Of a stretch of 64,000 bases of DNA, positions 38,601 to 58,400 are shown in pieces. The position numbers and the translations under genes were made by a program. Location of the stretch: positions 25,463,822 to 25,527,821 of the forward strand of contig NC_058055.1 in the NCBI RefSeq assembly GCF_020085105.1, written 5' to 3'. Below the pieces are notes generated by a model. That model was not told the DNA's origin. It ran no database searches and saw only the letters and a list, made by a program, of their open reading frames with translations. Position 1 is the first letter of the stretch; each line of letters starts with the position of its first letter. Source of the DNA: Siniperca chuatsi. Lineage: Eukaryota; Chordata; Actinopteri; Centrarchiformes; Sinipercidae.

Positions 38601-41042
38601 AAAATCTATACATATTTTTGTAAATTTTCTCTCTCATCATTTGCACTTTGGTGTATCGTTGCTATCTATAACCTTTATGCTTGATCACTTGATGAGTTTC
38701 TATGGTGGAAGTTGAAGAATTGTCTTTTCACTTTGACAGAATGGGTTTGGCTTTATATAAATTCAATGTTCACTCAAATAAAATATATACTGTGATTGTT
38801 TCTGTATCAGTTTATTTCTTGTTTGTTCAGTTGGGCTGGTAAAATCAATTTTCTGGATTTTAATATTTAATGTGCACAACAAATGTGGCAGTTTTTGGAC
38901 CAGTCAGTGTCTCTCTGGACAGAAACTCAAAGCTTTTACCAGCTTTCGTCTGATAGACTGTTGTGTAGTGTCTGCATGTCACCACTGGATGGAGCTGTTG
39001 AATGGAAGAATCGCAGTAAGAGAAAAATCAACCTATTATAGTTCCTCAGAGCCCAAGATGATAACTTTTTGTCTGACCAACAGTCAGAAACCTTAAGATA
39101 TTTAGTTTAGTATCATATGACGGAGAAAAGCAGCAAAGCCTCACATTTTAGAAGCAAATTATTGGCATTTTTGTCAAGACTGACTGAAACGATTAGTCCA
39201 ATATCAAAATAGTTGCAGTTCATTTTCTGTCAGTTGACTAATCAATCAGTCAATCATTTCAGCTCTAAAATATTTAAAAATAGATAACAAAGAATTGGAA
39301 AACATCAAATGTGCCTCAGGAGAGTGCCACTGTTTAGAGATGCATTAAATATTTCCACAGCAACTGAGATAAGTCAGACGTTGTTTGTTGTTCCTGATTT
39401 ATGAAGACTTTATATACAGAATCAATAATATTGATTCTTTTTCATATTTACAAAATGAGCACAAAGGACAAATATTTTATATATTTATACTCAGGAAGTT
39501 GTTACAAGGATAAACTAATATTTTTAGGTGAACCTGTTAGGGTGATAGCTACTGTACATTGTGATGGTCTTCTATGTGGATTGTTTCGTCATTGGTCACA
39601 AAGATGTACTGCGTGTCCTATGAATTTGTGGAACTTTTCTGATATGGATGAGAGTTTCTGAAATACAAATAGAATAAATGATCCATAAGATCTATGACCA
39701 AGTTGATGCTACTGTTTCGCCAAGTTCCATTTTCAAATAATAGTTTTGTTTTTATATAAAATGTGTTTATTGTTCCAGATAATACAAGAACGGGAAGAAA
39801 AGTTGTGCTTTAAAGCAAAGAAAAAATGTGCATTTTTGTTTATTATGAAAATGAGGAGCCTAATTTTTAGGGTCGTAATTACAAACTGTAAAAGACACAT
39901 GCTTCTGTGGGCCGACTTCCATTTTTGTAATGTGAGGTGAGACTGGTCGAAATAGGTATAATACATTAAATAGCACAGTTTCAAATGCAAAGATATCTTA
40001 GGGTGACTCATAAGTACAACAGACGAGGGTTTTGATTAATACAATTTGCGTTGCCTAGGTGATCTCGACAACAGCATTTTTATGCAAAATGCAGAAGGTC
40101 CAAGGCACCTTTTCTCATGGAAAGCAAAGTGGCCGAGGTCTTGATGATATTGTGGATTACTCTTCAAAGGCCAGGAAAAAGACCCTTACAAACGATTAGT
40201 ACAAACATCTTCAGTTGACCCATCCATTAAAAATGGATTTCACTACACAGTACACACTGTGTTTCACAAAATGTGCTGAAGCAATTTAGAAATAGGTTTA
40301 AACAGATTTTATTAGTAGAGCTGACATGATTAGTTACATAAGTAAGTAAATAAACAAGTTAACTGAGAAAATGGCAGATTTATTGACAATGAAAATAGTT
40401 GCGGACCTACTTATTAGCAACACTCAACTATGTGTCTTTATCATTAGTGGCTGTTTGTCTCCACCTAGTGGCTGACTCATATTCAGCAGCTTCGTAACCT
40501 TCACTTGATCCACTGAATTTTTTTACACAGATTTTCTGCCTTGGGGAAATATTTTAACTAGCTCTGACTGAAATATTCACATATGACTGCACATCATATA
40601 GCTTAAATGAAGAGCTGGAACAAGATGATACAGAATAATATATATGATACCATCAGATAGTGTGGAATAAGGTGACATTAACAACCTTAAAGCTATTTAA
40701 TTGAGCCACTATGTTTTAATGGTTTAATGGTCTAAGACATTTCATATTATGGGGGCAATTCAAAGTGTCTAATCCATCTGTGTGGGAGGAAACCGGAGCC
40801 CCCGGAGTAAACCCACATCAAAACGGGGAGAACACACACACCCCTCACAGACAGAGGTCAAGGCAGCAAACCCTCACACCTTGCTGCCACGACGCCGCAG
40901 TGTAAACTGCCGAGCCACCGTGCAGCCTGTACATGTCATCATGATGAGATGTTTGCTCATTTGACTGTCCACGTGTGGATCTGTGCCACAACACAATGAG
41001 CCAAAATGGCTTGAAAAAGGTGGGGCTGGAAGGGGGGCGGTG
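32646..41042. other. slc25a14 downstream region, gene-poor
   Basis: I see no convincing exons. The sequence is T-rich and contains several AATAAA-type signals, including 38777-38782, so an unknown part is probably slc25a14 3'UTR. A local duplication pairs 37229-37270 with 37705-37745 ('cttcatcagc' plus 'gtttgctca'). A degenerate SINE-like block lies at 40776-40930. ORFs of 60-126 codons here have no family resemblance. Confidence 0.5.
40776..40930 (-). repeat. Degenerate tRNA-derived SINE, reverse orientation
   Basis: It contains GTGTGGGAGGAAACCGGAG, GGGGAGAACACACACA and GAGCCACCGTGCAGC, which in reverse give the 'gcacggtggctc' head and 'gttctcccc...ggtttcctcccac' tail of a common fish SINE. 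It lies just downstream of the 517-codon ORF. Confidence 0.65.
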
Positions 41043-42596
41043 TCATCTGTTACCACTGAAGCAGGCAGTGAAGGGCTTCGCAAACGCTTTGCCCACAGAT
41101 GAGAAGAACCTGACAACGGCGTTCTTCTTTGGAGTTGGACCGGGCACAGTCAGATGAGTCTTCAAAGCCTGGATAACAAGATCGCCAACAGCCGGATCCT
41201 GTGATACCATGGCTTTCAGAAGCGCCTTTGCAGAGCCAAACTGCCGACGCAGGTCTCCGAACAGAGCCTTGTAGGTCTTCTTTACAGTTTGACGGTTCGA
41301 GCTGATTACGATATCAGCGAACTTGATCTCTCCCACTGCCTTATCTCTCAGATTCTCGATCACCCTATTGAAATTTTCCTGGGGCAGTGATGTCCGGCTC
41401 TTTTTTGTGGTATGCAATAGGAACCCCGCAAGCAGCAGGAGGACCTGTATGTGCTTTGTGTCATCATCTGGCCGTGTTGTTGACTCAGAACTACATGTGT
41501 CAGAAGAAACAGCTGGCACAGCTGTGGAGTCATCAGGCTGATCTTCACATGGTGAGGCCGGACTGACTGGCTGAGAAGCTATCTGGTTTGGGCAACTTGT
41601 TTCAATGTGAATAGTTTCAACTGATGCCTGGCTGATCAAGTCCTCTGGTTTGTCCTGTGTATCTGTGTGGTCAGAACTCAGCCACTCCTCAACAGTTGTT
41701 TGTACACTGCCATATTCAGATTCTTCAATATCAATATATTCCGCACTCCAATCTGAGCGACCGATATCAAAGCTTTCAGTGGATATCCAGCTGTCCGAGT
41801 CCTCACTCCAGAACCCTGAATTTTTATCCTCAACACGCCAAAATTCGGTGATCTCTGTTAGTATTTCCATGGCCTTTTTGTTCAAAGTAGAATAGATTAT
41901 GTCACAAGGCCCCTGCTCTATGACCATACGCAGTGGCTTTTCCTTTGCTTGGCTGTGGTGTAAGACTGAAGTGGTGCTGGCCTTTTTTGAGGTTCTGCTC
42001 AGTGGCGTGCACTGGCAGTTCTTCTGGTGCATGCATCTTAGTATGTGAGTAACTAGACCAATCATGGTATGAAGAGTTGTGAAATAGATGCAGTTACACT
42101 CAAAAGTCATGGGTAGGGTAGGTAAAATGTAGGTGTCCATTATCACAGCTATGCGAGAGTTGATTCTTCCCGTCACCTCTTTTGCAACTAGCCGGATGAA
42201 TTCGTCTAAGCTCTCACAGTGAATACTTGTCATGGTGTTAAAAGCATTAGCGAAACTCCGTGGGAGGATGTTTTTCAGGTTAGCCAGGACATCACTCTCA
42301 TCTATACCGAAGAAACACTGGCCAGAGTTTACATGAGCGTATATTCGTGGGGCTTTCCTGTGCCAGTCTGAAGTGGTAGGCCTAATGACTTCCAGGATAG
42401 TCATGGAAGACAAATTAGCAATGTTCTGACATAAGTCAACCAGCAAAGTCATACTACACTTGTTATGCGTGCCAGATACCACCTCGCTCCAATAATTGCT
42501 AACCAAACACCTTACATATGGGCCGATCTGTATGTCGCATTCTCTGATCGGAGGGAATTTCACATAAGCGGTCAATAAGAGTCTCGATGGATCCAT
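41043..42596 (-). CDS. Intronless 517-residue protein of unknown family
   Basis: One uninterrupted ORF with a good start context (AACATGG) encodes 517 residues; I do not recognise a named domain. Residues 1-200 are mixed helical sequence with many Cys, including DEFIRLVAKEVTGRINSRIAV (131-151) and a His/Cys cluster near 184-196. Residues 255-385 are acidic and Ser/Trp-rich and probably disordered. Residues 384-394 are strongly hydrophobic (VLLLLAGFLL). Residues 403-482 look helical, with FADIVISSNRQTVKKTYKAL, and the C-terminus (490-517) is basic and amphipathic. It is not a recognisable transposase, reverse transcriptase, capsid or receptor. Repeats flank it on both sides, and the lack of introns suggests a retrocopy or a lineage-specific expanded gene. 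I infer a real coding gene from the ORF length; the function is unknown. Confidence 0.7.
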   Translation of the reverse strand: MDPSRLLLTAYVKFPPIRECDIQIGPYVRCLVSNYWSEVVSGTHNKCSMTLLVDLCQNIANLSSMTILEVIRPTTSDWHRKAPRIYAHVNSGQCFFGIDESDVLANLKNILPRSFANAFNTMTSIHCESLDEFIRLVAKEVTGRINSRIAVIMDTYILPTLPMTFECNCIYFTTLHTMIGLVTHILRCMHQKNCQCTPLSRTSKKASTTSVLHHSQAKEKPLRMVIEQGPCDIIYSTLNKKAMEILTEITEFWRVEDKNSGFWSEDSDSWISTESFDIGRSDWSAEYIDIEESEYGSVQTTVEEWLSSDHTDTQDKPEDLISQASVETIHIETSCPNQIASQPVSPASPCEDQPDDSTAVPAVSSDTCSSESTTRPDDDTKHIQVLLLLAGFLLHTTKKSRTSLPQENFNRVIENLRDKAVGEIKFADIVISSNRQTVKKTYKALFGDLRRQFGSAKALLKAMVSQDPAVGDLVIQALKTHLTVPGPTPKKNAVVRFFSSVGKAFAKPFTACFSGNR

Positions 42597-42789
42597 GTTG
42601 CCTGTTTTCTTGCTGATCTTTCAAGACGCTTCTTAGTTTGTGTTGTCTGTCATTCATCACTACAGAAACATTACTAAGTATGGAAGCGCCCCTTTGCTGC
42701 AGTTGTCCAGGCAAGTTGAGCATTCTATGTTTGCATTCTGGAATGAAATCAAAGGCCTTCTATTGTGACATCATCAGGGGGCAGGGCCT

Positions 42790-43400
42790 TCCATCTGTCT
42801 CTATGCAAATTAGTTTCTGTCAAGCCAATTTGACATAGTGGCCAAACCGTGTAATTACAACCGTCACGTGACGCACACTGGCCCAAAAATGCTTTTTCCT
42901 ATAGACTTAAATTGTGAAAGAGATGTCTGTAAATCAGCGGATGATTTTCATCACATTCCTTCCCAGTACAAACACGTGAATAGCCCTTATTTAAATCATT
43001 ATGTCCTAAAAGTTGTAAAATTCACTAATAGTTGAATCTAGAGTTATTTTCCCTAGGCATAATGAACGCTCATCAGAGCCACGGGACTGCGCCGCCCTGT
43101 TGGGAGGCGGGGTTAAAGGAAATGCTAGTGTGCTTGCTCTATGGGGCGCACAGATGCCGAAGCTATGCGGATGATCCAGGTAATTTTATACCAGGAAGCC
43201 CAACTTTTTTGGCTTAATGCCAAGCCATCGTGCTTTGAAGCCAATTTGACATAGTGGCCAAACCGTGTAATTACAACTTCCGGGTCCGTCACGTGATGCA
43301 CACTGGCCCCAGAAGACTTTTCCCCATAGACTTACATTGTGAAAGAAGCAGTTGTAAAACGGTGGATAATTTTTTTTTTGAGAGTCACAACCCCCGTGAA
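42790..43400. repeat. Two direct repeat copies upstream of the 517-codon ORF
   Basis: A block beginning CCAATTTGACATAGTGGCC occurs at about 42823 and again at about 43240. Each copy continues through 'aaccgtgtaattacaac', 'cgtcacgtga', 'gcacactggccc' and 'catagactta/tagactta...ttgtgaaaga'. The copies are about 416 bases apart and diverged by small indels. This looks like a common teleost interspersed repeat present twice. Confidence 0.8.
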
Positions 43401-43655: not shown

Positions 43656-44746
43656 TTCAACATCATTTCACTATTTATGCATACAAGTACAGCAGAAAAT
43701 GTCAGAAAAAAGTGATTTTATCCTTACTTGTTTTGGGGCCTTTTTCAGTGGAAGTCTGTAAATCACTGAAAATATTAATAATTCACAGTTTATTTTGTAG
43801 TGTACAGACATAAATGAGATGTTATAGTTGCTATAAATGAAACATGTTCAGCGTATTCACCGATGAATAGACAGACTTCAGAGGGTCAAGCAAGATAAAG
43901 ATGAATATCTGCATCAAACTGTAATGTTAATACTCAGAAGACATTTTGTTTACTCAAAGAAGCAACGAGGTCCAAAGAGAACTGCATCATTCTGTGGTTT
44001 TGTTCAGGATGAGGGGCAGAGTGAACCAGCTGACTGCTGAATTAACTCTACATAACTCTTAACTCTCCTTTTGTTTTGATGGAATTTGGGTGAACTGACC
44101 CTTTAATATTTCCTCTGCTGGGAGTGTAGAGACAAAGTTAGTGTCTAACTGTACTTTCACATTCTGTGTCATGAAATGATTCACAAATTTCTTCACATTT
44201 GGGACATTTCAACAATGAATTGCTGCAGAGAGGGCTTATTATTTGACTTCCTAAGCCAAAAGTTATCTTTAATTTTGATGTAAGCAATCAATCAATTACA
44301 CACACACACACACACACACAGTCATTAAGTCAAGTGGCTTCAGGTGTGTCAGCGTGTCACACACCTGACCTTTAAACCACATGGGAAACCAAGGAGGGAG
44401 TAACTCTTTTAGTATCTGATGATATTAGTATGTGAGGTTTTCACTACTGAACAAGCTGCTGCTTCATACACAGATATAAGTATATGTAGATATATACGTT
44501 TTGTTATTTATTGGTGTAGTAGCATTAGAAATCAAAGCTGAGTTCTCTCTAGAGCTTCAGCAGCAAATATGTTTGCTTAAGTTGTCTGGCTTCCAGTTTG
44601 TCTTGTTAGTTTTATGTTATTTTCTATAACAGTAGGATCACCCTACATATGTTTTATTCTCTGTAGAGTTTTTTTAACAGTACAGGTTTGAGTTTGCTGG
44701 TCAGGCTTATTAAGCCAGAGGTTAGAGAGTGAGAGTGTGTGTAGCC
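43656..44746. other. Upstream flank of the BTG gene
   Basis: AT-rich sequence with a short (CA)n run at 44299-44320. I see no exon and no clear TATA box. The first ATG of the BTG gene at 44747 is preceded by purine-rich sequence. Confidence 0.4.
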
Positions 44747-47700
44747 ATGAAGGAGGAGATTGCTGCTGCTGTGTTCTTTGTGGCTCGGCTGGTGAAGAGA
44801 TATGGCTGTCTGGACAATGACAGCAGGGAGCGCTTTGCCGCTGCCCTCACTTCAGTTCTGTTTGAGAACTACAAGAACCACTGGCACCCGAACGCACCCA
44901 CCAAGGGACAGGCCTACAGGTCAGTAACCTTTTTTTTTTATTTTTTTTTTTTCAATAGATAAAAAACATAATGCAACACAAGAATGAGCAAAAAAACAAA
45001 TCTAGGCACATGTGGTAGCTAATCCAAGCAAAAAAAGCCAAAACTAATAAAATATGGGGGGGGGCACAAAATATGATTAAAATGTCACACAAATACAACA
45101 AATGGCGTAGTACATCCACATTATAAAAATAGTTGTATAAAAAGGGAATTGTCAGTTTTTGTCCCATTTGTCATTGACCTAATACAGAGAATTTAAAGCC
45201 AGACTATGTAATGTTTGAAAGAAGAAATAAATCATTCTCTCTCAAATGAAATGTTAGATTCAAAAGTCATAAAACAAACCCCTGCTCAGTTCAATACACT
45301 CACTTGGTCTGGTATGACCAGTAGCATCGGATAGCTAATGCTAGCTAATGTTTCTCATCTATTGTGGTGTTGTGTACATGCCATTCATTGTCTTTGTTCC
45401 ATATTGGGTTTTGTTTGAGGGCACTGTAGAGCATAAGAATTTGGTCACCCAAATAACAGTAAATATAGTGCACTAAATAAATATGGAGTCATTTCGGACA
45501 TGGCTATAGTCTTGTTGAAGTGACCCTAAAACAGCTTTTTAACGGTGGCGAATTCCGCATTTTGTGATCATTTGCGTAGTGTGATTGTTTCTTCCTCCTC
45601 AGGATAATATCACGTGATATTTCCAGCAGCAATGACTTTTAGGAAATGTTGAACAATCATAGAGGGTGAAATCAATTGTGGAAGAGTCAGACACAGAATT
45701 GCACACAACGAACGAAACAATGTGGTGTGGGGCGCTTCACTGTCTTTAGTCACTTTGTTTTTTTGTTTCACTAATTTGTAGTAATACCTAGCCATGGAGA
45801 TAGCTTAGCTTAAATTTCCCCAAGTTTGATGTCTTGATTTTCTGCATCACAATGAAAGTGAACGAAATTTAATTTGTGGTGCTCACAGAAATGAGAAATG
45901 TCATTTACAGTGAGACGTTTAACTTTTTTTAAAGAAGAAATGACTCATTCTTCCTCTGACAACAAAGTTGAACTCAACGCAATAAAACACACTATTGTTC
46001 AACTTCATGTACTCTGGGGTTTCGGTCACAACAGCCTTTACTTATGGAATGATGCTAATGGTGGCCAGTACTCAAAGTTTAGGTACATTTAGCTGTATAA
46101 CAGACATTACTCGGTGAACTGACTGACTATCCACTCTACTTGTGCTACAGTTACAGAGGGTTGTAGCATTTAGCATTATCCCATAATTGTCACCATTATT
46201 TAGCAGAAGTTACATAGTCTCACTTTCAAGTTCAGCAGCAACACTACACTGTAGAAATAGTGTCCAGTTACACTTGAATCCTAACCTCACCGTGCACACT
46301 ATCACTGAAACTACTTTGTACCAAAGATGAATAGAGATTTTGCTTCAAAATTTTAATTGTATTTTCTCAACGGTATCACTGTCACTCAGAGTAATGAAGC
46401 AAAGTTCTCTTCAATACAAAGTAGTTCCAGTGAAAACTGTTGAATAACAGGGATGTTGTGTCTGGAAATACATATTGCTGAAGCGGAGTTGGTGTTTTGA
46501 GCTGAACGTCACTGCTGTGTGCTTCAGGTGTCTGCGTATGAACCGTGTGCGGCTGCAGGACCCGGTGCTGCAGCAGGCCTGCGAGCAGAGCGCGGTGCGG
46601 TACGAGGATCTGGGCCTTCCCCAGGAGCTGACGGTGTGGGTCGACCCTGGAGAGGTGTCCTGCAGGTCAGGCCGCTTAAGAGCCAGACTTGATACAAGTT
46701 CACTGCCACAGAGGTGCACCTGAAAAATGCAGCTCTTCATTGATTCTATGGGGGGGGGGATTCAGTTAATATCCTCAAAATTTAGACTAAACTTTGTCCT
46801 GGACAGAGCTGCTGATTTGTTTCAAATTTCAGTTTTGGGCACAACTTCAAAAATCCCCAGTCAATTTCACCCCCATGTTTTTTTCATTAAGCTTGAACCA
46901 TGATTTTAGCTTTGGCTTCCCACCAACACTGACTGCTCACTATTACCCTACAGTTGTACTGCTTCAACCCAGTAATGACTAAATTTAAAGAGATTTGTCA
47001 TATTTCAGTTTCATGACAAGATTTTTTTTTTTTTAATTTGCATTAAACACATTTAAATTGATGTAACTTGCCCGGAGTTGTATGAGAAGACTGATACCAA
47101 TCATGTCTGTATGCTAAATATAACGACAAAGCATCAGGTGATTAGCTTAGCTTAGCAGTGACTTCCTTGAGTCTCCACTAGTTGCCTAGCAACCTCACTG
47201 ACTGTTGTTCCAGCACATAACTCACAACAGCACAACTTGGTCGTGTTGTTTTTTTGATTGTGTATAGATTATACAAATGAGATGGTACATGTTAAATTAG
47301 TGAGTTTTAAAGGTGTTAAGTGGATTTATTAAAATTTTGGAGAAAGCCCAACTAGCTGTTTCCCCCCCTGCTCTGTCTTGATGCTAAGCTAATCACCTGC
47401 TAGCTCTAGCTTCATGTTGAGGATATAGACGTCTAACGCAAGAAAATGAATAAGCGTACGTCCCAGAAATGTTGAACAATTCCTTCTTTTTTTTTTTTTT
47501 TTTAATGGGCTTGCATGTTAAATCAAAATCTGCTTTTTATTACTGGTACAAAATGTTTTGCAGTTTTTTCTGTATCTGTTTTGTTCTTCCTTGCAGGTAC
47601 GGCGAACACAGCACTCCATTCTGTGTCTCGGTGGTGAACGGCTGTCGGCGAGGAGATGGCGAATTTTCCCGCCGCATCCATGACGCCGTGGAGCGGGCGA

Positions 47701-48804: not shown

Positions 48805-51800
48805 AGCGAGCCGAGCATTCAACGTGGTTACTGCTCGGGACGGGAGCAGGGACGGCAGCCATGATGCTGGATCAAAGCACCATAGACCCTGTTTGCAGGG
48901 GGGGAAGTTTCAGGACAGTTTGTGTATTTAAAGGATAAGTTTATTATTCGTACATGATTTAAAGTGTTAATGATTTAAAGTTATGCTGTTTAAGCATGTT
49001 TTTAAACTATATTCAAGTATTTTAATTCTCCCTTCTAAATGTTTTTAAACTAAAATTAAAGTAAGTGTGAATAAAGTAACATTGAACTGTCATTGAAAAG
49101 AAATAAATGCGTCCGTGTCAGCTCTGCTGGTTGTTCTAAAGCGTTTCCTGTTTCTATTCATATTGTGGTTGATCTTTTTAACACATCGGGATACTGAACT
49201 AGCTAATCATAAATTTCCTCATCCCAGAAACAAAAGTCTTTCCAATTAATAGATTTTTTTTTTCTCTTTTATTATGGGAAAAAAAGAGTGAGATAGGACT
49301 AAATACAAATTATTGCAGCCATAAGGGGAAATCAATATACTAACAGAAATGATGGTAGCATAGCACAGCCTTGTTTGGGCTCCACAAACTGACAAAGATG
49401 GCAGTGACTGATAAACCCAGAGTTGCATTATACGAGCTGGTTATAACCGTGATGCTGCAACATAAAATCCCCTGCAGCCATTAAAAACATTTTTCCTAAT
49501 AAACTGATAAATAAGAGGAAATGGGTGTCAAGACACAAGTCCGTATTAAATATTTGGTAGCTTCTATGTTCTGCTGCTGTCTTGGCCAGGACACTTAATG
49601 TAAAGAAGATTTTTTTCTCAGTGGGCACTTTCATGATTAAAATAATAGGAATTTTTAAATCATAAAGAGCAGATGGTGCTCTGCTTATGTTTTGCCTTCT
49701 GTTCAGTGTAATCTACTGCAGACATACATCTGAATGTACTCTTAAATACAGTTCAGTGGGGAAGCTGATATGCCTGAGCTGTTGGGGGGGGTGTGTGTGT
49801 GGTGGTGGTTGTATTGGTAGTGTAGTTAGTGATTGGTGTGTAAGAACAATCAGTTAACAACACTGCCTACACAGCAACCCCATTCACCATCGGGAATCCG
49901 CAATACTGCAGTAAATGCTGAGAGATGAGTGAAATAACCGACATAGTTAATACATACTGATACACATGAACAGATTTAACATTTGTTTTTGTAGCTGACC
50001 ATCTTCATGCTGGACTGAAGAGAAGCTTTATGTGAAATATAAAAATGTAATTAATGATACTGATAAGATGATCACATCTAGGAATCTATTAAAGCATGAA
50101 CTCTGGTGTTCACAGGAGTCTGATCTAATCAGAATATAGTTGTAATCCTTTTAAAGGAATAGCTAAACATTTTTGGGAAATACGTTTATTTGCTTTCTGG
50201 GAAGGCTTAGATGAGAAGACTGATACCACTTATGTATGTATGGTAAATATAAGGCTGCAGCCAGTTAGCTTAGCACAAACCCTGGAAACGGGGGGAAACA
50301 GCTAGCCTGGCTCTATCCAAAAGAAACAAAATCCACCTACCAGCACCTCTAAAGCTCACTAATTAACACGTTATACCTTATTTGATTACAAAAACCGAAG
50401 TGCAAAAACAATTAACCATTTTACAGGGGGGTTATGTGGCAGACTATTTCCCGGCTCTAAGCAGATGCCAGGCAACCAGCGGAGACGTTGGAGATCCAGG
50501 AAGTTACTGTTCCCAGCCAACAAATAGTCCAGCGAACTATTATTCCTTAAGACTTGGTAACAGTTTTGTTTACAGTCACCTTGTTGCAATATCATTTTTA
50601 CATTTTATATTTTATGTATTTTTTTGCTATAAGGACAAACACAAAAGTTCAATAGAAAGCTTACAAAAACAGAACTATGAATAAAAAACAATAAATAAAT
50701 AAAATGAAATATAAATAAAAAATATCCCTTTTAAGTAACCCTCAAGAGCTCTGGGAGTCTGGCGTCAGCAGGATCATTTCCCTCCTAGTTTAACTATTGA
50801 AGTCAGTGTTCATTTATTACAGAAGAATGTGTTGAATGAGGAAACAATGTCTTTCTCTGTTGTTCAATTTTTCTCTTTTTTTGAAAGGCCTGCCTTCACT
50901 TTCTCACTCTGTCACACTGGGAATATGCCAAGGTTTATCGTTTTTCTTTATGGCACTGGCATTTTAACAAGTGGCCAGTTAAAACTGATTAGGAAATATT
51001 AATTAGATAATGTCAGTCAAAAATAATAGGAAACAATAAAATGACCCCAGAGTTCACAAATGATTGAGGCAGCCATGCTCCAATCGATGATTTTCAAATG
51101 GTTATTCTTGTTTTGTTTTGAACTTCATATCAGTTGGATCTTTGTGAAGCTGAATCACACTGGACGAAAGCAGGACTCTGATTGGCCGTTCATGACTGGT
51201 TAAACATCCAAACATCTGTTGAGTTTTGTGGCTGCTGGGCTGTACAGTCTGCCGAGTTGTCGATCGCGTTGCACACAGTGTGACCTGTCCATGCACGGCC
51301 GCATGAGTGGATAAACAAAACTTGAAAAATGTCTGCACTGATATAAATGACAACAGCAGTCTCCAAAGTGAACTATTGGTGCTGTCCTGTATGAAATGTG
51401 TGTGTCTGTGGATGGATGAGTGCTGTGATCCTACCTGCGGCCGCTGCAGTTCCCACTGCTCAGTTTACAAGTGACCACTGCTGGAGAAACACAACCGTCT
51501 CCACAGCTACACTTTACTTGTGTGTGTGTGTGTGTGTGCCCGTGCCTCAGGTCATGCCTCGACTTGCCCCTGGCTGGCAGGTATAGTTGATGTTGCCTCA
51601 GAGGCAGCAGTAAACACTCGCTCTGAGCACCAGGATTGGCCAGTTTTGTGTTTGTGACCACAGCACTCTCACATGTTTTTACTACATTTATTAATTTCAG
51701 CCCCATATTATTTGGCACAGCCTCATCTCCGTTTCACACTAAAGATGCTTTGCAGAACCCAGATCTTTTACTGCACTCAAGGTCAAAGAGGTACTGCAGT

Positions 51801-55455: not shown

Positions 55456-58400
55456 ATGGCAGACGCTGAGAATCTCCTCATGGAGACATCAGACCAGAAC
55501 GGCAACGAGGGAGAGGAGGACCAGAACGGAGCCGAACAGGAGCTGATGGGTGGTGAGGATGTCCAGGACGACCAGGATGTCCAGGACGACCAGGACGGCC
55601 AGGACAATGGAACAGATGGAGGCAAAATTGACGCCAGCAAAGGAGAGGAGGATGCTGGGTGAGTGTTTTAGTTTCCCTGAGGCCTGACACAATCAGTATG
55701 TATGAGCACCTTTTGGTATTCAGTAAAAATGTATTGTCATGAACCAAAAAATAGAAGAAAGCATAAGTATAACTAGTCCATCTTTCCAGTTGAACTTGTT
55801 CATGACCCTCCTTAGCACCTTGTGCGTGAACTTCCTACGCAACTGACAGCACGGATGTCAAGTGCAGAGGACAAAGATTCGGGTCAGACTGAGTAAAATG
55901 ACTTATAAATAAGTTACTTATAACAAGTCACAGAATGATACATATGTTCTCTAGATATAGAAGTATAGGAATTAAAGTAAATGAATAATGAGCTTATGTA
56001 TTCTGTATCAAGGTGTTATTACATTGTATTATTATACCGTATTATAATCAACCGGTAAACCCACTTTGTACTTCATACTTATTTTGATTTTATACTTATA
56101 CCCACTTTGGTACTTAATTTATCTTACCTGTATTATAGTGTATTATATTTTGATTTGCTTAGTACTTCTATTCCTGTGTGCACTGATGTGATAGTGAGCT
56201 GCTGTAAGAAGAGTTTCCCCTCGGATCAATAAAGTCTTTCTAATTCTGATCAGCTAAGGCTACCTGTGCAATAATAACTAGTGTAAAAAAAATATATTTT
56301 TTTTTAAAGTACGAAATTAACAGCAAGGTGTCCCACTGTGTTTGCAGTAAAATGTTCGTGGGCGGCCTCAGCTGGGACACGAGTAAAAAGGACCTGAAGG
56401 ATTACTTCAGTAAGTTCGGCGAGGTGTCGGACTGCACCATCAAGATGGACTCCAACACTGGCCGATCCCGAGGTTTTGGCTTTGTCCTCTTCAAAGAGTC
56501 CTCCAGCGTGGACAAGGTCTGTCTCTCTGATTATCGGACAGCCGTTTCACATGTATCATCACTCAACTCCGTCATCGCATGTCGGATGTTATATTAGTTA
56601 TATTATGATCAGATTAGTGCAGTACTGACATGATGCTGCCTGAGTGGAAGCGTAACACGTTTAACACCTGGATCTTTGATTTTATTTGGGTAATTTGATT
56701 CTTGGCATGCACCAGAAACGCTGTTTGAATTGGGAGCAGAGCATTGTTTTATACACGCAGCAGGCTTTTATGGCAACAAAATCTGTTGCTAGCAGATACA
56801 TCTGTTTTAACATTTTGTGACTGACATCTAATTCAATTTTAATGAGTATGCAGTTCTTAAAGTGGACCACAGAAAAAGTCGTGTTAATCTTGTTGTTTTT
56901 GGAGGGGGGGGGGGTCACTTTTCCAAAATGTCACCAAATGTTTCTGCGCCATTCTAAACAGTCAGTGCGAGGGGTATATTTCCAGGCTTTGGGTCCATCG
57001 TTGCTTTGTGTTAGCACTCCATGCTAAATATGATAACACGTGTGCGTCTGCAGGTGCTGGAGCAGAAGGAACACAGACTGGACGGGCGTCCCATTGACCC
57101 CAAGAAAGCGATGGCCATGAAGAAGGAGCCCGTCAAGAAGATCTTTGTTGGGGGTTTGAACCCTGAGGCGACTGAGGACACCATCAGGGAATATTTCGGG
57201 GCTTTCGGAGAGGTCAGTTTTACTAGACAAGTCACGAAAAACGTGCTAGAACTGCAGATAAAACACAGTAGACCCCCACTTCTCCCTGTGTAGTCCTGTA
57301 TGCTCAGCCATGTGTAGTTTTAACAGAGCAGCCTGCAAGGGTAGTGTCCGTTGGTGGGGAATGGCACTGATCATCTACAGAATTAAATTGCAGACCAAAG
57401 GAACTGGAGGTTAGTTTGAGAACCACTGGTTGAAGAACTCACATTTAGGTACTCTACTACAGAATTCTTAAGGAGGATGCTTTTATTAAATTTTAATCCT
57501 ATCACTGTCACACAACCATGTTTAATTGGACTAATCCTTGAGCCTAATTCCTAATTAAGCTACTGGCTGATTGAAACAAAGTTGCAGGTTCATCTGAGGA
57601 CAGGCTTCCTATGGAAAATAACTCGTTTATCAGAAATTCTGTCCTTCACAGACTTGTAGAATAATAAACAATTTCCCCATTCACTACAGAAGAGGTTTGT
57701 TTTAATTCTCTTTTAAGTTGTCTTTTAAAATTTACGCGGCACATTGATCAATTGTTTGGAAAAGTGTCAGGTGTGCTGTGTGATAAAAGAATATCAGCAA
57801 GAATGAAAGGAAAGGTGTTCAAGACGCTGGTGAGACCAGCGATGTTGTACAGCTTAGAGACAGTGGCACTGAAGGAAAGACAAGAGGCAGAGCTGGAGGC
57901 AGCAGAGCTTAAGATGCTGAGGTTCTCTTTGGGAGTGACGAGGACGGACAGGATCAGGAATGAGGACATCAGAGGGACAGCTCATGTTAGACGTTTCGGA
58001 GATAAAGTCAGAGAGGCCGGATTGAGGTGGTTTGGACATGTTCAGAGGAGAGACTGTGAATATATTGGTAGGATGCTGTGGTTGGAGCTGCCAGGCAGGA
58101 GGGCTAGAGGAAGACCAAAGAGATTTATGGATGTAGTGAGAGAGGACATGAAGTTAATTGGTGTGAGTGAAGAGGATGCAGAGGACAGGGTTAGATGGAG
58201 GCACATGATTCGCTGTGGCGCTCCCTGAAAGGGAACAGCCGAAAGGAAAAGAAGATGGATCAATTGTTTGGAAAATGTTGTTTATAATAATGTAAGCTGG
58301 AATTTTGTTCAACCTAAATATTGGGTGTGTGATATAGTCAGTGGAGGAGACTAAAAGTAACAGTTACTGGTTACTGGTTTTGGCCTGCCAGTAAGACAAC

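Follow-up and report, generated by a model that had tools for sequence, protein, structure and literature searches.

An apparent single-exon fish gene of an unnamed, fast-changing protein family with a SINE-like core behind its stop codon

The V highly conserved domain found in SINEs is about 120 bp long. Elements of the V-SINE superfamily, as described in excerpts of PMC6887750, combine a tRNA-like head with a conserved core. They are reported there to be frequent in fish mRNAs, and a regulatory role has been suggested (PMC6887750, citing Scarpato 2015). The same excerpts describe a debate, by now two decades old, about the reason for highly conserved domains in some SINEs. Teleost retrogenes and single-exon genes (e.g. 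in excerpts of PMC8207432) provide a second comparison, in which intronless copies stand beside intron-bearing relatives. Flatfish-specific Hipk genes (excerpts of PMC8618825) are a third. They share with the family described here a lineage-specific expansion, and a kinase-like ORF precedes one site (L072) of the core analysed below. In the count given in these excerpts, most duplication is DNA-mediated, and their Hipk passages describe neither the present family nor a common 3'UTR.

The locus studied here lies in a 64,000-nucleotide stretch of the Siniperca chuatsi genome (the window), on contig C14 of this 719-Mb genome (Table 1). It looks like a real single-exon fish gene that belongs to an unnamed, fast-changing protein family. 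In contrast to the teleost retrogenes in PMC8207432, as far as these were described in the excerpts, the family appears to have spread at least partly via DNA, and in the L014 group promoter and 3'UTR travelled together. It also differs from the V-SINEs reported in fish mRNAs. The remnant, tentatively identified as V, recurs in the 3'UTR of every examined member of one diverged family, and is also found behind several unrelated ORFs.

We consider it reasonably likely that all of the following hold together: the gene is functional and fast-evolving, belongs to a retro-derived intronless family, encodes a membrane adaptor, carries a selected SINE-derived element in its 3'UTR, and is used in the germline. 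This reading starts from the ORF, its family, the introns on C16 and C24, the core together with its position, the calculated amphipathicity of the tail and the UTR conservation of one subfamily. To these it adds presumed membrane binding, a putative role at the mRNA level, possible germline expression and a probable retro-origin.

Table 1. Features in and around the 517-aa ORF (positions within the window)
Feature	Position	Strand	Remarks
Single-exon ORF, 517 aa	41043-42596	minus	stop codon 41043-41045
N-terminal conserved region, 196 aa	42009-42596	minus	21-25% identity to 7 aligned relatives
Variable acidic, Ser/Trp-rich middle, residues 255-380	41457-41834	minus	net charge -27
C-terminal domain and basic amphipathic tail VVRFFSSVGKAFAKPFTACF	41055-41462	minus	25-34% identity, 10 relatives
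SINE-like remnant, presumed 3'UTR	40781-40927	minus	name V-SINE tentative
tRNA-like head, A-box-like	40912-40919	minus	
tRNA-like head, degenerate B-box-like stretch	40866-40882	minus	
36-nt V-like core	40781-40816	minus	+226 after stop
Three ATTAAA poly(A)-signal-like hexamers	40696-40728	minus	just past core
Presumed promoter marks	42729-42810	minus	site names tentative; function putative
CTTTGAT	42748-42754	minus	-158
CRE-like TGATGTCA	42766-42773	minus	-177
Octamer-like sites	42803-42810 and 42729-42736	minus	
Repeat copies	42817-42948 and 43233-43373		80-96% identical, ~420 bp apart, just upstream of presumed promoter
BTG-domain ORFs	44.7-46.7 kb	plus	
BTG-domain ORF	44726-44959		Pfam E 8.4e-20
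mir-34 precursor	49808-49875	minus	Rfam RF00456
ORF fragment, 158 aa, presumably LINE-like	57752-58228	plus	among RRM-containing ORFs of hnRNP-like gene; no Pfam match

The ORF and its family

The 517-aa ORF is real and coding. It measures 517 aa from the ATG and 525 codons from stop to stop. Across 60 windows of 64 kb simulated with a first-order Markov model, stop-free stretches reached at most 204 codons in any frame, and the simulated maxima averaged 158 codons. The original prediction that the uninterrupted ORF exceeds chance is therefore confirmed. Its coordinates were exact, and the strand, which it left unstated, was found to be minus. GC content is 46.5% in the ORF versus 39% in the flanks. 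The runner-up ORF in the window has 228 aa and overlaps a GPCR exon. A chance open frame is rejected by the simulated maximum; with homologues keeping the frame at other places of the same genome, this explanation is vanishingly improbable.

No known-family signature had been seen in the protein, and the library searches agree. It has no Pfam or PHROG row, its best NCBIfam match (E 0.058) is far under the cut-off, and its two PDB matches have E values of about 2 (best 1.8). Searching Pfam with the sequences of nine relatives gave only sub-threshold scores (best E 0.0012). Ferrochelatase, syntaxin, ACE and I/LWEQ came up as candidates and were taken as chance matches, with PDB E values of 0.1 or higher, Pfam scores below the cut-off and inconsistency between members. 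Searches of open-licence papers with peptide words and with wording for a single-exon teleost family returned nothing. The protein family is unnamed in every library searched. It is ordinary in kind, a fast-evolving one-exon family with intron-bearing relatives.

A long intronless ORF that lies between repeats and has several copies could also be a domesticated viral or transposon protein. We regard this origin as highly unlikely. Neither PHROGs, Pfam nor the PDB gave a significant match, and two scans of IMG/VR viral contigs, one with the 517-aa protein and one with the C-terminal alignment, found no relative. Relatives with intron-like interruptions also argue against it.

Family members were searched for with the window protein, L014 and L010 as queries, and matches were merged by hand. 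The counts are lower bounds. Related proteins were found at 22 or more places on nine contigs (C14, C15, C16, C17, C18, C20, C7, C5 and C24), plus one place on C22. C15 holds one full copy and a fragment, C7 two places and C18 six. Five tandem copies are located at 7.21-7.23 Mb of C17 and two copies at 5.40 Mb. Open frames in the family reach 874 codons. The window contains no second copy of the 517-aa protein, other tblastn matches having E values of 2 or worse. The C-terminal exon of the C16 relative matched only itself when used as a query. In the tree, the window protein grouped weakly (73/78) with L010, L020 and the C22 type. One of the copies at 5.40 Mb of C17 (L013) contains a tandem in-frame array of a 14-residue repeat, FEAAPDSITDEPSE, in which other frames are also open. 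The expectation of an undescribed, lineage-specific expanded or retrocopied family fits the relatives on nine contigs, which mostly have one exon, two having introns, and none of which has a library name. Homologues with a conserved frame do exist in the same genome, and some copies are broken.

Selection was analysed with the NG86 method in 19 pairs. Six of them, all five with the window protein plus L010/L020, have dS above 1 and say little. dN/dS in the remaining 13 pairs is 0.26-1.38; three are near-identical (7-11 differences), and the other ten range from 0.57 to 1.38. Values are near or above 1 in several pairs (L012/L013, 0.93; L014/L016, 1.03; L016/L017, 1.38), and relaxed constraint is therefore possible in some branches. 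L014/L015 has a dN/dS of 0.57 over 611 codons, and neither L014 (630 codons) nor L015 (658 codons) contains an internal stop. When neutral drift was simulated along one lineage (d=0.2, 611 codons), 11.2 stops arose on average and 0 of 1000 runs stayed stop-free. Indels between L014 and L015 are multiples of three in 10 of 11 cases; the corresponding counts in other pairs are 6/8, 4/6 and 14/23. The original prediction had named dN/dS near 1 with frequent stops as the pattern that would speak against a gene. The rates (0.26-1.38) follow that pattern in part, and the stops, judged from L014/L015, do not. The family is coding but fast-evolving, with some copies relaxed or broken.

Introns, spread and promoter

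Our analysis revealed introns in two relatives. On C24 (L020), the N-terminal profile matches (E 6.5e-8) an exon located upstream, the ends of which resemble splice sites. On C16 (L085), an intron lies exactly between domain and tail, with profile positions 50-108 in one exon and 109-134 in the next. These exons score 28.6 and 15.0 against the profile, compared to a best score of 4.5 among 100 shuffles of each, and the upstream part of the C16 relative is matched by L010 (E 7.9e-9 and 1.7e-8). In the window copy, L010, L012, L014, L015, L016, L017 and L018, the N- and C-terminal regions are located in one open frame. L013 shifts frame within its repeat, and L021 is broken. Intronless copies thus occur next to relatives with introns, as expected for retrogenes.

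Given the introns on C16 and C24, we regard the one-exon form as probably retro-derived. Either relative may represent the parent, with introns lost rather than gained. The simplest reading is a multi-exon ancestor with an intronless, reverse-transcribed branch. An intronless copy would have been reverse-transcribed from the multi-exon gene, and tandem and dispersed duplication of DNA would have followed. By eye, neither a terminal poly(A) nor a target-site duplication was seen in the 3' flanks inspected; the copies are old.

The flanks bear on how the copies spread. Dispersed copies on C11, C18 and C21 remain homologous to one of the C22 copies well beyond the core and its AATAAA, for some 440-520 nt, and in two of the three the homology runs to the end of the sequence compared. 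When a second C22 copy is compared, its homology to the others ends about 130 nt past the core. Homology past the poly(A) signal suggests that duplication at the DNA level moved the C11, C18 and C21 copies, and that the later spread, tandem and dispersed, was at least partly DNA-based. Promoter sequence is also common to L014 and L015.

Alternatively, the gene copies could be the cargo of a mobile unit, in which the SINE-like 3' end and hairpins serve as cis signals for a LINE reverse transcriptase. The 3' signals would then be conserved since only copies keeping them spread. The copies are indeed intronless and dispersed, the core lies near the poly(A) signal, hairpins precede it in 8 of 10 members, and the homology with one of the two C22 copies ends shortly past the core. 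For stringent LINEs, the 3' end of the template RNA is described as the presumed site of recognition (excerpts of PMC3747384 and PMC4176376). We nevertheless find this quite improbable. The long shared flanks with the other C22 copy and the promoter common to L014/L015 speak against it, many copies are tandem, C24 has both core and intron, and the 3' flanks showed by eye none of the terminal features of retroposition. Retroposition by the SINE tail as the engine of spread is unsupported, the homology of the C11, C18 and C21 copies extending past the core.

Several members of the family have upstream marks in common. Among 9 members compared, 8 have CTTTGAT between roughly -140 and -210, versus 5 of 9 for the best 7-mer in 300 shuffles; as the members are related, this count overstates the agreement. 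The start of L013 is approximate. Within 350 nt, a CRE-like site occurs in 6 of 9 members and a TATA-like box in 7 of 9; the window copy has no TATA-like match within this distance. A BTG-family gene is located head to head with the 517-aa gene. Together with the mir-34 precursor, we take this neighbour to mark the BTG4/mir-34 region. BTG4 is a germ-cell gene. Germline expression would be our guess for the 517-aa gene, because of its rapid evolution, the common CTTTGAT/CRE-like promoter and the head-to-head position with the BTG-family gene.

Protein architecture and the C-terminal tail

Members have in common an N-terminal region (8 aligned) and a variable middle. Behind the middle come a C-terminal domain, about 110 residues long, and then a tail of the type RFFSSVGKAxxKPFxxC, for which 11 members were aligned. 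The two conserved regions are helical-looking. Across them, the window protein is 21-34% identical to other members, and the acidic middle aligns poorly between subfamilies. The acidic middle had been recognized from the window sequence, as had the basic tail, which carries a charge of +6 over residues 480-517; both descriptions stand. The N-terminal half, described as Cys-rich, does contain about 12 cysteines by eye, but no Cys column is invariant among 8 members. The proposed short hydrophobic segment did not hold up as such. It stays below transmembrane hydropathy and is the start of the C-terminal domain common to relatives. The highest 19-residue Kyte-Doolittle mean anywhere in the window protein is 1.19, and no transmembrane helix was found in it. 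AlphaFold models built from single sequences for residues 373-517 and 1-240 were too poor (pLDDT 43.0 and 34.9) for comparison with fold libraries, and the C-terminal domain is all-helical only in a low-confidence model.

The tail of the window protein has a hydrophobic moment above that of shuffles (P=0.0002). On paper, a basic amphipathic helix spans the last 18-20 residues in 8 of 8 tails tested (P<=0.0042 versus shuffles), with a charge of +3 to +5; the tested set comprises 8 of the 11 aligned tails, L015, L017 and L019 being left out. In the diverged C22/C21 branch, transmembrane hydropathy is found at the place of this tail in 5 of 5 tested (KD19 2.58-3.21). The branch is linked to the family by the C-terminal profile, which matches five C22 loci with E values of 1.7e-9 to 7.2e-12, and by alignment. 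Among the five C22 loci read, a transmembrane-like tail was present in 3 of 3 tested. Basic tails with hydrophobic residues are also seen in L072 and L074, whose ORFs seem unrelated to the window protein.

An amphipathic helix in some members and a transmembrane helix in others, at one and the same place, suggests that membrane attachment is a common need of both tail types. The C22 branch resembles tail-anchored membrane proteins in its C-terminal transmembrane helix, and the other members resemble proteins anchored by an amphipathic helix. No sequence relation to a named family was found. The protein would most likely be a peripheral membrane adaptor, in which a disordered acidic linker connects the two conserved helical regions. 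Its C-terminal basic amphipathic helix would hold it on the cytoplasmic face of the membrane, and a transmembrane helix at the C-terminus would take the place of this helix in the diverged C22 branch.

The SINE-like core in the 3'UTR

Pairwise blastn indicated that members with barely alignable coding DNA share 36-143 nt downstream of the stop codon. A 36-nt core, which we take to be the V-SINE conserved domain, is found in sense orientation in 10 of 10 members examined, +165 to +437 nt past the stop. Nine have 0-4 mismatches, and L012 has one base deleted. The other strand and the upstream flank differ from the core by at least 14 mismatches, except upstream of L012, where the core of the neighbouring tandem copy lies. 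The core is also present at L021, L034, L048, L049 and the five C17 tandem copies, with gapped scores of 26-34 out of 36, compared to at most 13 in shuffles. Gapped alignment found no core in L036 and L037, both of which seem to end before its place, and none was seen in the 134 nt read after the stop of the C16 relative. C24 holds both intron and core; the core is therefore not confined to intronless members.

The tRNA-like head is clear by eye in L014-L017 and L020 and degenerate in the window copy; ARAGORN found no tRNA in the window. In several other members, AATAAA is located by eye within about 120 nt past the core; this does not hold for L016, and in L020 the hexamer comes later. In the 3' flank of L020, an insertion with inverted ends, located at roughly +385 to +815, by eye seems to split the SINE remnant and is flanked by an apparent short target-site duplication.

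Conservation of the 3'UTR was compared with that of the coding sequence. Up to the core, the 3'UTR differs less than synonymous sites, and also less than nonsynonymous sites, in 5 of 6 pairs tested, with site numbers approximated and gapped columns excluded. All five pairs in support are drawn from L014-L017, a set of four close copies. In L012/L013, from another subfamily, the 3'UTR is no more conserved than coding sites. L014/L018, a pair outside the significance test, has a UTR distance of 0.39, a dN of 0.38 and a dS of 0.57. Because the supporting pairs come from L014-L017 only, a broad claim of 3'UTR constraint rests on the core. Between members whose synonymous sites are saturated, the core keeps 32-36 of 36 bases, L012 having lost one base.

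The 3'UTR folds far better than shuffles in 8 of 10 members (z -3.6 to -14.5), compared to z values of -2.9 to +2.1 for 5' flanks of equal length. No significant 3'UTR hairpin was found in the window copy (z -0.67) or L018 (z -0.04). The stem arm TTCATCTTGAAGGAAA occurs eight times in the genome, seven of them in family 3'UTRs, and its reversed control occurs once. Covariation in the hairpin is weak, with 2 compensatory pairs over 6 comparisons. The 3'UTRs of L012 and L013 (C17) contain a near-perfect hairpin of about 45 bp, which, given its length, could presumably serve as a substrate of Dicer or ADAR.

The genome holds many further cores. A slightly different exact pattern gave at least 31 matches. 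Within 3 mismatches, at least 89 sites are found in 719 Mb, and the reversed pattern gave 0. Twelve of the 89 sites lie beside dispersed members from the protein search, and 12 are in a C22 cluster of exact core sites (G000:C22, 16.0-18.05 Mb; L057-L061), which the protein search touched once (E = 9.3e-4). All five C22 sites read (L057-L061) have the family C-terminal domain, with the core 182 nt past the stop in each. We read 20 further core sites, a first 10 (five of them on C22) and a second 10 chosen among those with no more than 2 mismatches. ORFs of 150 aa or longer end 60-500 nt upstream at 12 of the 20 (6 of 10 in each set), compared to 2.1% of window positions in the control.

Six of these 12 ORF-linked sites are of the C22 type (L057, L059, L060, L061, L071 and L073) and are not independent. 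The other six ORFs seem unrelated, and the core follows their stops by 108-498 nt. By eye, four are coiled-coil-like (L062, L066, L068 and L074), L075 encodes a repeat protein, and L072 has a kinase-like tail. The Pkinase score of L072 (20.2 bits) is under the cut-off of 31.7; we take it to be Hipk-like. Sites outside the 12 include L058 (142 aa, C22 type), L067 (broken C22 type) and L070 (by eye, a relic of the dispersed family), in addition to L063, L064, L065, L069 and L076. The letters of the core had no match in open-licence papers, and searches there for V-SINEs with 3'UTR or mRNA returned general statements only. What is uncommon about this gene is its 3'UTR, where a SINE-like core has lasted longer than much of the protein sequence; the core also turns up behind unrelated ORFs.

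The core could also be a passive passenger. A V-SINE would have landed by accident in an ancestral 3'UTR and been carried along by duplication, behind weakly constrained proteins. The dN/dS values near 1 in some pairs and the unexceptional UTR of L012/L013 are consistent with this, as is the reported frequency of V-SINEs in fish mRNAs (excerpts of PMC6887750). However, 35, 32 and 33 of the 36 core bases are retained in the window copy, L010 and L020, respectively, despite a mutual dS above 1. In addition, those read among the 89 or more sites are enriched behind ORFs of several families. On balance we judge the passenger explanation unlikely.

We favor instead a selected, SINE-derived element. 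The gene is probably under post-transcriptional control via its 3'UTR, where an exapted core is often preceded by a hairpin and followed by a poly(A) signal. Selection may keep the core as an mRNA element that acts in 3'-end formation, stability, localisation or timed translation. That a 3'UTR piece resembling a fossil mobile element outlasts much of the protein sequence suggests that the mRNA tail controls how the gene is used.

A wider possibility, which we put forward tentatively and with some doubt, is that the exapted core is one mRNA address, a post-transcriptional regulon for several unrelated, fast-evolving single-exon families, probably in the germ line. If so, its members would include the helical membrane family, the coiled-coil families and the kinase-like family. 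Conservation would then reside in the untranslated tail of the gene, and variability in the protein. A 3'UTR core kept despite saturated synonymous sites would offer a direct handle on the question of why SINEs carry conserved domains. The untranslated tail can also reveal hidden fast-evolving families once protein similarity has faded, as when the core led to the C22 cluster.
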